DNA of 43,760 nt from Dehalococcoidia bacterium. GTDB taxonomy: Bacteria > Chloroflexota > Dehalococcoidia > GIF9 > AB-539-J10. The position numbers and the translations under genes are program-made. Below are positions 28,798 to 35,560 of this stretch, piece by piece. Each line of letters opens with the position of its first letter. Position 1 is the first letter of the stretch. The stretch covers positions 1 through 43,760 of the forward strand of contig JAUVZB010000012.1 of NCBI GenBank assembly GCA_030602785.1, given 5' to 3'. The notes beneath the pieces are model-generated. The model saw nothing but the letters and a program-made list of their open reading frames with translations, was not told the DNA's origin and did no database searches.

Positions 28798-29126
28798 ATG
28801 GCTGAACAGCAGAACGCGCTCCAGCAGATGCTCGAGGCCATCGAGGCTGTCGGGCGCTATATGCGTCGCGCGGCTGCTCGGGCATGGCGTGCGACCGCCT
28901 TCAGGTGGCCTGGATGGGCAACCAGTTGCGCGTCATAGGTGAAGCTGCGGCTGCCCTCACCCCCGGGCTGCGCAGCGAGGTCCCGGACGTTCCATGGGAC
29001 CGGCTTGTTGCACTGGCCGAGGAGAGGGCCGGCACGCCAGCGGGGATGACAGCCGACGAGATGCAGCGCTTCGTCGAGCGCGAACTGCCACAGGTGCGTG
29101 AATCCGTCAGGCACGTCACCCTGTAG
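28798..29126 (+). pseudogene. Broken HEPN (HepT/DUF86-like) gene
   Basis: From ATG 28798 one frame encodes MAEQQNALQQMLEAIEAVGR then YMRRAA. The HEPN-like continuation is in the next phase: DRLQVAWMGNQLRVIGEAAA, then DVPWDRLVALAEER and FVERELPQVRESV. A single-base shift near 28870-28885 separates them. This matches HepT architecture (LEAIE helix, VIGEAA, VPW), but the R-X4-H catalytic segment is replaced by ERAGTPAGMTADEMQ, so it would be inactive even if the frame were restored. No MNT partner gene is adjacent. Two GC hairpins (28695-28712, 28751-28781) precede it. Confidence 0.7.
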
Positions 29127-29914: not shown

Positions 29915-30691
29915 TCAGTCAACCATCCTGCCCGAAGGCCAGAGGCGACCCAGCGCGCCCGGCTCGAGCAGGTGTGCTTCGATACACGACGAGTACTTTG
30001 AAAAACGTGTCCAGTCCACTCCGAGCTTCTTCAGGGAGCGCAGCGGCACGGGCAGTTCCATCCGCGGCCCCTTCACCTCTACAACCCCACCCGCCAGATG
30101 CAGGTCGCGCTCCCCGAAACCCAGGTGACGCATCACCATCGTGGAGTGGATATCGCAGTCGAGCGCCACGCTGTAGCCCGTAGTGAGCTCCGTGAACCTG
30201 TAGCGCCAGTACGAGATGTTGATGACCGGCACGAGCGGAGTCTCGCGGAAGAAGCCGAACTCCGCCAGCACCTGCATGAGTTCCGTGGCAGGCACTACGC
30301 CCGCGTGCAGCGCCCTCCGGGCAAGGCGGTCCACCGGCACCGTGATGCGTCTCCGGCGCTTGCTGCTGGCAAAGCCCTGGCGGGACTTCAGCTCGAGAAA
30401 TGCGGGCACTTCTCCCGCGTGCTCCTGCAGCGTGCCGTACCAGCGCATGCGTATCTTGTTCTTGGCGAACTCGCCCGCCATTGAGCGCACGTGCTCGGCA
30501 AGGTCGGGCGAGTCGAAGTAGAGGCTGCTGATGCGCTCCTCTCGAAACTCCACAGCGGGACGGCACGAGTGCCTCAGAAGACCGAGCGCAAGCGGGACGC
30601 GCTGCGGCTCGATGTAGAACTTGCGTTCGATGCGCCGGACCCGCGGCGCATCGCCGTAAGAGGACCCGGCGCGAGTCACTGCCTCAGCCAT
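29915..30691 (-). CDS. VTC-domain protein, polyphosphate polymerase-like
   Basis: 258 aa, triphosphate-tunnel fold. RRIERKFYIEPQRV contains the E-x-K entry motif; SSLYFDSPD, KNKIRMRWYG, FLELKSRQGF and SKRRRRI supply the basic tunnel residues; LDCDIHSTMVM and VVEVKGPRMELPVPL provide the acidic metal ligand and the final E-x-K. Eukaryotic VTC4 makes polyphosphate from ATP with this domain; bacterial stand-alone versions are presumed similar or bind polyphosphate. ATG 30691 follows GGGGGAGG; the gene overlaps the CotH gene by 8 nt and precedes DUF4956 by 18 nt. Confidence 0.88.
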   Translation of the reverse strand: MAEAVTRAGSSYGDAPRVRRIERKFYIEPQRVPLALGLLRHSCRPAVEFREERISSLYFDSPDLAEHVRSMAGEFAKNKIRMRWYGTLQEHAGEVPAFLELKSRQGFASSKRRRRITVPVDRLARRALHAGVVPATELMQVLAEFGFFRETPLVPVINISYWRYRFTELTTGYSVALDCDIHSTMVMRHLGFGERDLHLAGGVVEVKGPRMELPVPLRSLKKLGVDWTRFSKYSSCIEAHLLEPGALGRLWPSGRMVD

Positions 30692-32555
30692 TCCGACCTC
30701 CCCCGGGTGGTGGCTTCGCCGGTCTGCCAGGGACTCCGCCGGCAGGCATCCCCATGCCGCGCGCACCGTTGCCACTGCCGCCGCCATCTGATGGCCGCAG
30801 CCCGGCAAGCTGCTCCCTGATGGACACCGTTCTCTCTTGGACAAAGACCTTGAGGCCGACGACCATCCTTTCCCTGATATCCACCGCAGGTTGCCCCTCA
30901 TCGCCAGTTCCTTGCAGGAAGCCCAGCAGCGCGGCAATCTCCTCCGGCGTCAGGCACGCCTCCAGCTTTGCCTTCTCCTGGGGGGTCGGAGGGCGGTCAC
31001 GTAGCTGCTCAAGCGCGGCCTTCGGAAATGTCTGCCGCAGGCAGCCCAGCTTCGCGGGAGGCAGGGGCGGCGGGGCCTCGAGGGCCGGCGCTTGAAAGCC
31101 CTGCCCCGGGGCGCCTGGACTGCCGATGAGCTGGACCTCGACATCATCGCTCAAGCCCTGCTCCCACGCCTCGGTCGGATAGAATTTCAGGTCGTCCTTA
31201 ACAACGTAGGGACGGATAAGCTTCGCGCAGGACTCTATTCGTTCGCTCATGCGCTCGTACTTGAATGGTCCGTCCAGCAGCGCCTCCAGATATTCGTGAT
31301 AGCGATCGAGATAGGGCCCATGCTCCAGCAGCCGCGCCACCAGGGGCCTCTCCGCAATGGGACCCGTGGTCGGCTCGTCGACGTAGAAGTTGATGATGCC
31401 ATCGCGGTCGATGCCCATGGTGAAGACGCCGAAGGCCTCGTTGAGGTCCCACGGCATGATGGAGAAGCGGCCGTCCACCTCGTAGAGGTAGTAGTTGTGC
31501 CCCATGCCGATGTAGTTGTCGAGATGCACCAGAGCAGAGGAAACAGCGAGGAAGCGGAGCACGCTGTCGACGTCGAGCACTTCCTCTATCTGCTCCGGGA
31601 AACTCTCGTCCGGCTCGTTGTTGAGCACGTCAAGGAAGCGGAACAGCGCAGAGTGGTCGGAACGGCCCTCATTCGTCTTCAGGCCGGCCTTGTCAACAAG
31701 TGTCTCGACATCACGCTGCCTGTCGGGAGCATCATCGGACGGCGGCGTATCCTCTCCCGCACCGATGTAGCCCAGCAGCACATCCTCGCCGAGAATCCGC
31801 ACGATGTCACCCAGCCGGCCACCACCCAGATTGACGTCCATCACGCTCGTCTCTTCCTCCAAGTCCAGGCCGAGGGTCTCCACCTGCTCCAGGTAGTCCT
31901 CCTCGGTCCAGTCCAAGAGGCCGGCGGGCGGCTCAGGCTTGTAGAGATCGCCCGAGGTCCCGGGGAAGTGCTCGTCGAGGAAGCCGCGGTCTATCTGCTC
32001 CACCTGCGTATACACGCCGAGGTGAGTGTCGTTCACCCAGAGGTCGACGAACGACGTGCGCGGTGTTGGCAGCCCTATCCAGTCAAACAGCTCGTAGGCA
32101 AGCGTCTCCCGGATGAGTGTGGGGTCGCTGAAGCCGTTGCTGTAGTTCAACTTCTTCAGGCCACGAAAGGTGCGCGCGGAGTTGAAGAGATTGAAATCCA
32201 CCTTGAGAGCGATGCGCGGGCTGCCGGTCCACACGGCGGCGCGGAGCGAGGAGTTACCCTTGGGCCGCACTCCGACATCGGGGACAAGTTCGTCGCCATA
32301 CCAGAAGTCGGCACGCACGTACTCCTCCCGGTTCGCGCTCCGGCAGCACGCCTGCCAGTCCTCATCGCTCATCACAATGCGGACAGTGGCAACGCGGTCG
32401 GGCTCAAACGGTTCAGATACGGGGGACGCCACAGTCTCAGAGGGCACACAACCTGTGACGGCGGAGGGAAGAAGGATTGCGCACGTTAGAACAACGCGAA
32501 CGACGTGGGGCACACCGGAAGAATCCCGAACTGCGTGCCAACGATGCATGCTCAT
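30684..32555 (-). CDS. CotH-kinase family secreted lipoprotein
   Basis: About 623 aa. The N-terminal apolar segment VVRVVLTCAILLPSAVTGCV ends in a lipobox-like AVTGC. The CotH domain follows: VGVRPKGNSSLRAAVWTGSP, KVDFN, FRGLKKLNYSNGFSDPTLIR, YTQVEQIDRGFLDEHF, GDLYKPE, and the catalytic-loop-like HLDNYIGMGHNYYLYE with MPWDLNEAFG. CotH proteins are atypical kinases; the acidic D-N and W-D-L-N residues fit the phosphate-transfer site. A Pro/Gly-rich tail (about 480-500 and 595-623) may span the envelope. The start is uncertain (32555 or 32549; no clear ribosome-binding site). First gene of the CotH-VTC-DUF4956 operon. Confidence 0.87.
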   Translation of the reverse strand: MSMHRWHAVRDSSGVPHVVRVVLTCAILLPSAVTGCVPSETVASPVSEPFEPDRVATVRIVMSDEDWQACCRSANREEYVRADFWYGDELVPDVGVRPKGNSSLRAAVWTGSPRIALKVDFNLFNSARTFRGLKKLNYSNGFSDPTLIRETLAYELFDWIGLPTPRTSFVDLWVNDTHLGVYTQVEQIDRGFLDEHFPGTSGDLYKPEPPAGLLDWTEEDYLEQVETLGLDLEEETSVMDVNLGGGRLGDIVRILGEDVLLGYIGAGEDTPPSDDAPDRQRDVETLVDKAGLKTNEGRSDHSALFRFLDVLNNEPDESFPEQIEEVLDVDSVLRFLAVSSALVHLDNYIGMGHNYYLYEVDGRFSIMPWDLNEAFGVFTMGIDRDGIINFYVDEPTTGPIAERPLVARLLEHGPYLDRYHEYLEALLDGPFKYERMSERIESCAKLIRPYVVKDDLKFYPTEAWEQGLSDDVEVQLIGSPGAPGQGFQAPALEAPPPLPPAKLGCLRQTFPKAALEQLRDRPPTPQEKAKLEACLTPEEIAALLGFLQGTGDEGQPAVDIRERMVVGLKVFVQERTVSIREQLAGLRPSDGGGSGNGARGMGMPAGGVPGRPAKPPPGGGRNG

Positions 32556-32619
32556 TGCGACGCCGTGAGGAAGACCACGTTCCGGCACACTGTAGCAGAA
32601 CATGCGTGAAGGAAGAAGA

Positions 32620-32674: not shown

Positions 32675-33688
32675 CTAGAGTGCGGCCTTGACGCGTTCCG
32701 CCACATCGGCCGGGACCCAGTCGGTCCAGACTTCCTCGTATCGGGTCAGGAACCACGGTGCTGCTTCGGGCGCATCCTTGCCGCTATCCTGCAAGTACAC
32801 GAGCATTGTGTTGATGGCGTCAAGGGGGATGTTGAAGTCGAGCAGGAACTGGCGAACGTCCGGGGCACGTTCCTGCAGGCTCGTAGCACCGATGATGTAG
32901 TTGTCCTCCCGTGGATATCCGCACGCATACTTGTTCTCTTCGTTCCAGAGCTCTTCGGTCCACGCAGGCTCCTCAAGCGCAGTCATGTCAACCTTGCCCA
33001 GCACCCAGGTGGGCACCCAGTAGTAGCCAAACCACGGCTCGCCCTTCTCGTACGCTGAAATCATCGAGGTTGCGAGAGCCGTGTCGGAGCCGGGGGTCAT
33101 GATGTTGTAGTACTCATCGAGACCGTAGGCCTCCATCTTCAGCTGGTTCGTCTTCACGCACTGCCAGCCCGGAATGCAGCTATAGAAGCGACCTTTGGAC
33201 GAATCCTCAGGGTCCTCGAACAACTCCCAGTACTGCGGCATGTCGAACACGCTCTTGAGGTCGGGAGTCATCGGCTCGATGCCGCGCTCGGCATCGCCCT
33301 CTATCATGTATGTGGGGACAAGCCAGAGCTGGGTCATGGGCGTGTAGCACACACCCAGGTCCTCCCCCATACCAGTGGCTATCAGTGCATCGTGCGGCTC
33401 TTTCAGAGCGATATTGGCCATCTCCATATGGACGTCGATATCGCCTATCTCGATGGCCTTCAAGCCAACCACGTTTGTAGTGACGTCGATCCTGGTGCCG
33501 TAGCCGTAGCCATGTTCAACAATGAATGCGGCCACGTAGACCATGAAGGTTTGCGTGTCCCATGCGCAATCAGCGAACCGGATTACCTCGTCGCTCGTGT
33601 CCGACGAGGGACTGCATCCTGCGAAGGCTGTTGCGACAAGGACGGTCGCCAGAAGAAGCGCCGTCATGCAGAATGAAAACCGTCTCAT
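32675..33688 (-). CDS. Glycine-betaine-type ABC substrate-binding lipoprotein (OpuAC family, copy 1)
   Basis: 337 aa. Lipoprotein signal with lipobox AFAGC (Cys 25). The OpuAC type II binding fold starts at IRFADCAWDTQTFMVYVAAF; tryptophans and tyrosines suited to cradle a quaternary ammonium occur at YWELFE, GWQCVK, PWFGYYWVPTWVLG and PWFLTRYEEVW. ATG 33688 follows GAGAGGAGGACCCAAAG. No OpuA-type permease or ATPase gene is in the window, so it is an orphan receptor or uses a transporter encoded elsewhere. About 60-65% similar by eye to the next gene, with a conserved leader. Confidence 0.9.
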   Translation of the reverse strand: MRRFSFCMTALLLATVLVATAFAGCSPSSDTSDEVIRFADCAWDTQTFMVYVAAFIVEHGYGYGTRIDVTTNVVGLKAIEIGDIDVHMEMANIALKEPHDALIATGMGEDLGVCYTPMTQLWLVPTYMIEGDAERGIEPMTPDLKSVFDMPQYWELFEDPEDSSKGRFYSCIPGWQCVKTNQLKMEAYGLDEYYNIMTPGSDTALATSMISAYEKGEPWFGYYWVPTWVLGKVDMTALEEPAWTEELWNEENKYACGYPREDNYIIGATSLQERAPDVRQFLLDFNIPLDAINTMLVYLQDSGKDAPEAAPWFLTRYEEVWTDWVPADVAERVKAAL

Positions 33689-33727
33689 CTTTGGGTCCTC
33701 CTCTCAATTCAGTAGTGAAGCGGGAAG

Positions 33728-33991
33728 AAGATGATGCAAGGGCATCGCATACGACAGCGTCGCGCGGATGTTCCAGCGGGCGGTCAAGCGAAGAGCCACA
33801 AGGGGCTTGTGTGGGGCATCCAGACTGCGGGAGAAAGCCGAAGAAGAACGGGAGGGAATAGAGGATTACGGCTGAATTGGGTGCGGTCACCGAGACTGCC
33901 CTGGCATCAGCTTCTGTCTGGTCAGGTCATGGCGTCGGACACCGAGCATGCCGCGGCTGCGACTCCTTCAGTGCCCTGCGTCCTCCTTCAA
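33728..33991 (-). promoter_or_regulatory. Structured 5' leader A of the betaine-binding-protein gene
   Basis: This lies between a promoter at 34023-34051 and the ATG at 33688. The segment 33870-33991 is conserved with leader B. The arm AAGCTGATGCCAGGGCA (minus strand, 33897-33913) is complementary at 15 of 17 positions to 33728-33744, close to the ribosome-binding site. A local stem UGUC/GACA corresponds to UAUC/GAUA in leader B, a compensatory change. Identical blocks in both leaders are GCTGATGC, AGGGCAGTC and GACCGCACCC. Confidence 0.55.
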
Positions 33992-34022
33992 CGCGAGCGT
34001 CAAGCAAAACTGAACCGTTTCA

Positions 34023-34051
34023 AGAATACAACAAGCGTCTGGATGATGCAA
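34023..34051 (-). promoter_or_regulatory. Promoter of binding-protein gene copy 1
   Basis: TTGCAT (34046-34051) and TATTCT (34023-34028), minus strand, are 17 nt apart. The predicted start near 34016 gives a leader of about 330 nt. The -35 directly follows the terminator stem of the upstream gene. Confidence 0.65.
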
Positions 34052-34082
34052 GCGGTGAGGCCTGCCTGGCAGGCCCCACCGC
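34052..34082 (-). terminator. Terminator of binding-protein gene copy 2
   Basis: GCGGTGAGGCCTGCC (34052-34066) and GGCAGGCCCCACCGC (34068-34082) form a 15-bp stem with one G-U-type mismatch and a minimal loop, 31 nt after the stop at 34113. Confidence 0.65.
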
Positions 34083-34112
34083 GACAATCAATCGGCGACG
34101 TGCGGATATGCG

Positions 34113-35180
34113 CTACGCAGCAGCCTTGACGCGGGCCGCCACATCGGCGGGGACCCACTCGGTCCAGACATCTTCGTAGCGGGTCAGAAACCACGGAACC
34201 ACTTCGCTCGCGCTCTTGCCGCTCTCGTGCAGGTAGAGCAACAGGTCGTTCATGACCTCGAGGGGGATGTTGAACTCGAACAGGAAGTCCCGAACCTCGG
34301 GGGCACGCTCCTGCAAACTCGTTGCGCCAACGATGTTGCCGTCGTCGACCGAGTAGGCGCAGGCAAACTTGGATTCCTCAGTCCAGAGGTCCTCATCAAA
34401 CTCCGGTTCCGGGACCCGGTACATGTCAGCCATGCCGAGAACCCAGCTCGGCGACCAGTAATAGCCGAACCATGGCTCGCCTTTCTCATACGCCGCAACC
34501 ATGGACGCCGAGAGCGCCGCATCCGAACCGGGGCTCATGACGTTGAAGTACTCGTCCAGACCGTACCCTTCAATCTTGAGCGCGTTCATCTTCTCGCACT
34601 GCCAGCCGGGGACGCAGTTGAAGAAGCGACCCTTGGACGAATCCTCCGGGTCCTCGAACAGCTCCCAGTACGTGATGAGGTCGAAGACATCCTCGAAGTC
34701 CGGCATCGTCGCCTCGATACCGCGCTCGGCGTCGCCCTCAATCATGTACCTGGGAACCAGCCAACCCTGCCACACCGGCGTATATGAGACGCCAAGCGCC
34801 TCGGCCTTGCCGCTGTCGACCACCTCCTGGTAGACCTCGCCGATACTGCGGATTTCGACGTCCATGTGAACGTCGACATCACCGGTCTCAATCGACTTCA
34901 GGGCAACCATGTTGGCAGCTACTATCACCTCGGTGTTGTAGCCATAGCCCTCTTCGGCGATGAATGCGGCCAGGGTGGACATGAACGTGCTCGCGGCCCA
35001 CGACACGTCGGCAAAAACAAGGGTCTCGTCACTGTGGTCGGGCGCTGGAGTAGCGGCGGACTCCCCCGATTCCGATGGAGCATCCGCCCCCGGTGCCGCC
35101 GGCGAGCAGCCGGCGAAGGTTGTGGTCAGCAGTGTTGCGGCAAGCAACACCGTGACAATGGCACTTGTGTGCCTTCGCAT
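34113..35180 (-). CDS. Glycine-betaine-type ABC substrate-binding lipoprotein (OpuAC family, copy 2)
   Basis: 355 aa, tandem paralogue of 32675-33688. Signal peptide with lipobox TFAGC, then a Ser/Ala/Pro-rich tether (AAPGADAPSESGESAATPAP) that copy 1 lacks. The binding fold has LVFADVSWAASTFMSTLAAF, VSYTPVWQGWLVPRYMIEGD, PWFGYYWSPSWVLG and PWFLTRYEDVWTEWVP; aromatic positions are kept except the cage-adjacent T/W changes at WDTQT to WAAST. This suggests a related but distinct ligand. ATG 35180 follows GAGGAGGAACAGGACCT. It has its own leader (B) and terminator, so the two genes are separate transcription units. Confidence 0.9.
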   Translation of the reverse strand: MRRHTSAIVTVLLAATLLTTTFAGCSPAAPGADAPSESGESAATPAPDHSDETLVFADVSWAASTFMSTLAAFIAEEGYGYNTEVIVAANMVALKSIETGDVDVHMDVEIRSIGEVYQEVVDSGKAEALGVSYTPVWQGWLVPRYMIEGDAERGIEATMPDFEDVFDLITYWELFEDPEDSSKGRFFNCVPGWQCEKMNALKIEGYGLDEYFNVMSPGSDAALSASMVAAYEKGEPWFGYYWSPSWVLGMADMYRVPEPEFDEDLWTEESKFACAYSVDDGNIVGATSLQERAPEVRDFLFEFNIPLEVMNDLLLYLHESGKSASEVVPWFLTRYEDVWTEWVPADVAARVKAAA

Positions 35181-35217
35181 AGGTCCTGTTCCTCCTCTTA
35201 AATGGGGTCAAAGGTCA

Positions 35218-35469
35218 AAGCTGATGCGGGGCAGCACGAACGAGAATCGTGCGGCTTGTCTAGCGGGCTGTCACATGCAGCACCACAGGCGTTGAAGGCT
35301 GTGGCAGTGAACTGCAGTGGAGAGATAGGAGCAGGGGCTCTTCAAATCATGGCTGAAGAGGGTGCGGTCGCTTGGACTGCCCTTGCATCAGCTTATCTGG
35401 CTAGTTCATGACCTCAGATACCGGGCGCTTCGGCGGCGCCACAACCTCAGTATCCTACGTCCTCCTTAA
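35218..35469 (-). promoter_or_regulatory. Structured 5' leader B of the second binding-protein gene
   Basis: Counterpart of leader A. The conserved core is 35351-35469. The arm AAGCTGATGCAAGGGCAG (minus strand, 35377-35394) is complementary to 35218-35234 at nearly every position, closing a loop of about 142 nt ending 38 nt before the ATG. The local stem UAUCUG/CAGAUA is perfect. An AT-rich ATACTATATG (35496-35505, minus strand) is the best -10 candidate; no clear -35 is seen. Extra hairpins (CCACAG/CTGTGG, GCACGA/TCGTGC) lie in the loop. Confidence 0.55.
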
Positions 35470-35560
35470 TGCGTCGTTCCAAGGCGCGCATCTCACATAT
35501 AGTATGCATGAACACAATAGACGGCGCAACCATCAAACGAGTGAACCACTCACGAAGGCC

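Follow-up and report, generated by a model that had tools for sequence, protein, structure and literature searches.

The window, which is the whole 43,760-nucleotide stretch of DNA analysed here, comes from a salt-lake Dehalococcoidia bacterium and carries two neighbouring genes of the OpuAC family (betaine-type binding proteins), designated A and B, both on the minus strand.

34113-35180, minus strand: gene A, OpuAC-family substrate-binding lipoprotein, 355 aa (Pfam PF04069, E=4e-40)
32675-33688, minus strand: gene B, OpuAC paralogue, 337 aa (Pfam PF04069, E=1e-39)

The best match of gene A among solved structures is 7yle (107 bits), and the two proteins are 58% identical (BLASTP), with 55% identity at third codon positions and 50% at four-fold sites. 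No permease or ATPase gene was seen beside A or B among the neighbouring genes tested with Pfam, and a complete OpuAC-ATPase(CBS)-permease operon is located elsewhere in the same genome, on another contig. Immediately downstream of gene B lie a CotH-kinase gene and then a VTC-domain gene (29915-32603, minus strand). Each OpuAC gene of the window is preceded by a leader of ~290-300 nt, and both leaders contain a common 120-nt block that is 75% identical between A and B (E about 1e-14); the coordinates, sequences and shared block reported earlier from the letters of the DNA (the sequence-only reading) are correct when read on the minus strand. Since the block is 75% identical and four-fold sites are 50% identical, it is constrained and is more than the trace of a recent duplication.

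Homologous leaders occur twice in the window's genome and once apiece in the genus's six further genomes (G001-G006), and these relatives were found by a protein search of 100 related genomes followed by a covariance model, R1, of the 5' hairpin described below. Within the collections searched, which include several hundred Chloroflexota genomes, the leader is restricted to this one genus: when 393 genomes of the class and 400 of the phylum (overlapping in part) were searched with R1, no other match exceeded chance level, a relaxed search of the remaining members of the family found no further leader, and a scan of 84,980 species genomes with a degenerate pattern gave five loci only, all on contigs of members of the same genus. 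Matches outside the genus in G098, G757 and G766 (28-29 bits) were dismissed as chance, given their E of about 0.003-0.005 per genome and the ~400 genomes in each search. As the sequence-only reading had held, there is no match to a known riboswitch class, the window giving none among 4227 Rfam families (Rfam 15, gathering threshold) and a permissive scan of 33600-35560 giving only unrelated, chance-level matches. Several members of the genus look, from the sample codes CSSed and B1Sed, as if they derive from sediments of Cock Soda Lake and Bitter-1, which have been described (PMC6146748).

Seven of the eight copies are directly upstream of an OpuAC gene and in line with it, but because all eight are homologues of a single ancestral locus, this association does not constitute independent evidence. 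Other OpuAC paralogues of the same genus and family lack this leader, which rules out a leader common to OpuAC genes generally, and the element is also absent from the complete OpuAC-ATPase-permease operon of the window's genome. In the paralogue grouping (window genes and L012-L016), A falls with G004 and G006 and B with G001, G002 and G005; the A and B paralogues are older than the species, and reciprocal loss or exchange of tandem copies is thereby implied. A family of ~110-aa proteins adjoins OpuAC in four genomes (for example, L067 4255-4587 and L064 4493-4828), the two members tested having no Pfam match, and a relative is also encoded elsewhere in the window (28860-29114, plus strand).

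The conserved part of the leader is a 5' domain located ~290 nt from the ATG, which excludes the ribosome-binding site of the gene, the surroundings of which are little conserved.

35398-35468, minus strand: conserved 5' domain of leader A, comprising AAGGAGGAC, hairpin I and a CAUGA flank; hairpin proper 35410-35461; R1 84.9 bits (seed member)
33919-33989, minus strand: the equivalent domain in leader B, with the hairpin proper at 33931-33982; R1 78.8 bits (seed member)

Directly 5' of hairpin I is the invariant AAGGAGGA. The hairpin itself, with the consensus GAC[GYA]GGAYACYGA..UCGGURUCC[GAG]GUC, consists of GAC/GUC, a 3x3 internal loop GYA/GAG, the stem GGAYACYGA/UCGGURUCC and a variable apical part, with CAUGA as its 3' flank, and folding indicates that in B-like copies it can be lengthened by AGG/YCU around an AUGA stretch. 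Standard pairs are present in 95.8% of cells across the eight copies, compared with 20-47% in slid controls, and at the eight core pairs (alignment A4 columns 14-58 to 21-51) all 64 of 64 cells are paired, 14 of them changed, the changes including U-A/C-G exchanges. The G003 copy, which was detected by the model yet is outside its training set, retains 12 of 12 hairpin I pairs. A structured leader, as proposed by the sequence-only reading, is supported. That reading had also described a compensatory change in a local stem (UGUC/GACA to UAUC/GAUA); the change is real, though slightly misquoted, as B reads GGGCAC/GUGUCC, with GGCA, not GACA, opposite UGUC, and the U-A to C-G exchange stands and recurs in G001 and G003. 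Support from covariation is weak to moderate, with shuffles matching the observed values in 26 of 500 and 40 of 500 cases, double changes at one pair only, and scores that, according to a warning of the tool, are inflated by the relatedness of the copies; folding z-scores are modest (-0.35 to -3.96).

The loop of hairpin I has indels of -10, +2 and +5 nt, and as these are not divisible by three, coding is disfavoured, as is any upstream reading frame of more than two codons. A two-codon frame is conceivable: the AAGGAGG in front of the hairpin, a perfect Shine-Dalgarno sequence in 8/8 copies, would be a true ribosome-binding site for an AUG-NNN-stop behind the hairpin, and ribosome occupancy would control the leader. 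This site behind hairpin I is fixed, with codon 3 a stop (TGA/TAG) in all eight copies, AUG in six and codon 2 free. However, the AUG has become ACG in G006 and AUC in G004, the spacing requires the hairpin to be looped out, and the TGA/TAG difference may represent a single ancestral change, so that such a translation device is a most improbable explanation.

Promoter-like elements lie 5' of the block in both leaders, and the intergenic region between genes A and B contains a strong hairpin in addition.

35524-35529, minus strand: -35-like element of leader A, TTGCGC, with a corresponding position in 8/8 copies
35501-35506, minus strand: -10-like element of leader A, CATACT, spacer 17 nt
34046-34051, minus strand: -35-like element of leader B, TTGCAT
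34023-34028, minus strand: -10-like element of leader B, TATTCT, spacer 17 nt
34052-34082, unstranded: strong hairpin past the end of gene A and ahead of the leader B promoter, formed by inverted repeat I2 (arms of 15 nt, 93% complementary)

All eight copies have TTGN3-N17(18)- followed by a -10-like hexamer (TANNNT; CATACT in A) ending 27-34 nt upstream of AAGGAGG, a pattern derived from these same homologous copies, so that the product of the chances is not a probability; the sequence around these sites is merely 28-77% identical. With a promoter-like site 5' of the block in every copy, the block is probably transcribed and, judged from the sequence, transcription should start immediately before it, rather than downstream of the block, the position that the sequence-only reading had named as evidence against its proposal. 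The strong hairpin in the A-to-B intergenic region suggests that B is probably its own transcription unit. An exact direct repeat, GATGATGCAAG, is present at 34042-34052, over the -35 element of promoter B, and at 33730-33740, within the downstream arm of the long repeat considered below.

Folding places a second, local hairpin, P3, 3' of the conserved domain.

35352-35392, minus strand: local hairpin P3 of leader A, GCUGA...UCAGC
33871-33911, minus strand: local hairpin P3 of leader B

The outer 5 bp of P3 can form in seven of the eight copies, the exception being G005, which lacks the 5' strand, and in G001 and G003 the hairpin is lengthened by UGAC/GUCA in place of the inner GGGC/CACCC pairing.

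The one copy that is not linked to OpuAC is that of G003 (L071, minus strand, about 1250-1650), where the promoter, hairpin I and P3 are kept and the gene is gone. The order there is a DUF4349/PKD gene, then promoter, hairpin I and P3, then a convergent DUF3467 gene, and the 110-aa gene found between DUF4349 and DUF3467 in G001, G002, G004 and G005 is also missing. In the DUF4349 tree, G003 is nested among gene-bearing species (supports 84-89 there), and loss of OpuAC is therefore most simply a deletion; the G003 block is no more diverged than the gene-linked blocks. The deletion may be recent, or else the RNA is useful by itself, and this leader without a gene is a natural test of RNA function on its own. 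The latter case would suit an independent small RNA gene, driven by a promoter of its own and situated upstream of OpuAC by chance, whose product works in trans or as a 5' fragment released by processing, since its parts survive in a nested genome, and with no extra divergence, where both OpuAC and the 110-aa neighbour are lost. Such a gene is nevertheless unlikely: a convincing terminator before the gene was not found in A, B or G003, the G003 leader runs to roughly the expected position of the ribosome-binding site, which fits a simple and possibly recent deletion, and both tandem copies in the window still pair gene with leader.

In each of the two leaders a long inverted repeat links the block to a second site, 35-59 nt ahead of the ATG, pairing 35217-35236 with 35377-35394 in A and 33723-33747 with 33896-33915 in B, with a spacing of about 142-152 nt in both.

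35217-35236, minus strand: downstream arm in leader A, -29.9 kcal/mol, p<0.001; retained elsewhere in G006 alone
33723-33747, minus strand: downstream arm in leader B, -27.7 kcal/mol, p=0.003; not retained in B-like orthologues

With duplex energy compared to dinucleotide shuffles of the downstream region, the repeat is real in A and B and also in G006, whose leader is nearly identical to that of A (-31.7 kcal/mol, p<0.001), and to that extent the downstream arms are conserved as first claimed; in the other five copies (G004, G005, G002, G001 and G003) its energy does not stand out from the shuffles (p 0.17-0.56). As a conserved core of the element it therefore fails in five of eight copies, and it is not the part that evolution retained across the genus. 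Since A and B belong to different sub-lineages, its presence in both is convergent, the product of exchange within one genome, or chance.

In the sequence-only reading the long stem, AAGCUGAUGC.AGGGCA paired with UGCCC.GCAUCAGCUU, was the main switch, controlling access to the ribosome-binding site. The strength of the pairing in A, G006 and B is in keeping with this, and in leader A GCUGAUGC can be taken up either by the downstream arm or by the 3' strand of P3, such that the long repeat and P3 are mutually exclusive, as is required of a switch; G001 also has arms GATGAC/GTCATC, though its pairing is not above chance. However, not only is the stem insignificant in five copies but its arm ends 35-37 nt short of the ATG, leaving the Shine-Dalgarno sequence uncovered in A and B, and gating by this stem is very unlikely. 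The alternative of a DNA operator, in which a protein would bind the block immediately after the promoter and the distant repeat of A and B would serve as a second, looping operator, can draw on AGGTCATGACCT, which in G005 is a palindrome of 12 nt without mismatch and in other copies nearly one, and on the recurrence of GATGATGCAAG over the -35 of B. It is also quite unlikely, as the second operator is not kept in five copies, one half of the palindrome has decayed (CGATAT, TCAAAT) while the half that contributes a strand to hairpin I is kept, and the changes in the hairpin preserve pairing with apical loops that differ in length.

No conserved expression platform, either a terminator or a stem sequestering the ribosome-binding site, was found across the copies. 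Matches to intrinsic terminators are at background level, with none convincing before the gene in A, B or G003, and pairing at the ribosome-binding site is no better than in shuffles, so conserved occlusion was not found. A decoy Shine-Dalgarno arrangement, in which a single anti-SD stretch would pair with either the 5' AAGGAGGAC or the gene's ribosome-binding site, was also rejected, its pairing being at shuffle level (p 0.08-0.96).

The explanation we favour, with confidence slightly better than even, is a new, lineage-restricted candidate cis-regulatory RNA leader for a solitary osmolyte-binding protein. The analysis itself establishes the sequence conservation, the pairing potential in all copies, the position of the promoter-like site and the restriction to one genus in the collections searched. 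Under this proposal each OpuAC gene would have its own promoter and an mRNA with a leader of ~310-330 nt, the first ~70-90 nt of which would fold into hairpin I, followed by the second hairpin, GCUGA..UCAGC. This conserved 5' domain would be the sensing or binding part, its internal loops and flanks presumably recognising a protein, an ion or a small molecule. The ~150 nt nearest the gene, which vary more, would relay the signal to mRNA stability or translation. The 5' strand of P3 could alternatively pair, in A and B, just upstream of the ribosome-binding site and may provide a locally evolved switching strand. Transcription, regulation, any ligand and the switching are inferred.

A betaine-like ligand, as first suggested, is possible, its one basis being the gene association, and in G003 the leader persists with no OpuAC behind it. 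Likewise possible is a riboswitch for betaine or salt, and if the leader is a riboswitch it would be a candidate betaine- or salt-sensing RNA of a new class; the full proposition, a new riboswitch class of one salt-lake Dehalococcoidia genus in which hairpin I senses a betaine-type osmolyte or the ionic state and controls a solitary osmolyte-binding protein, is rather improbable. At minimum, these structured leaders are new to the catalogues and come from a phylum that has received little study.

Riboswitches that respond to the osmotic or salt state and regulate genes connected with osmolytes are known, namely those for c-di-AMP (ydaO) and Na+ (DUF1646) (PMC9337991), and the leader matches no riboswitch model in the Rfam scan. 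The opuB motif (SRC-50-1) of Enterobacteriaceae is likewise a structured leader of an Opu-type ABC transporter gene, with a ligand said to be related to shikimate metabolism (PMC11109978), which illustrates that such a leader may sense something other than the solute being transported; it has five stems, with P1 formed partly from the Shine-Dalgarno sequence (PMC11109978), an involvement not found here. Functionally closest is the proX motif (SRC-29-1), a candidate riboswitch upstream of proX in Spiribacter. It too is a structured leader of rare occurrence, found in organisms of saline habitats and linked almost exclusively to one gene, for glycine-betaine/proline-betaine transport (PMC8632094). 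For betaine, it was the one candidate in the literature consulted, and is itself unproven. The proX motif occurs in a different phylum and is set apart from the present leader by its description, its consensus being published as a figure only (PMC8632094): it has a highly conserved ribosome-binding site that can be occluded by P2 (PMC8632094), whereas here the conserved domain is ~290 nt upstream and excludes that of the gene.
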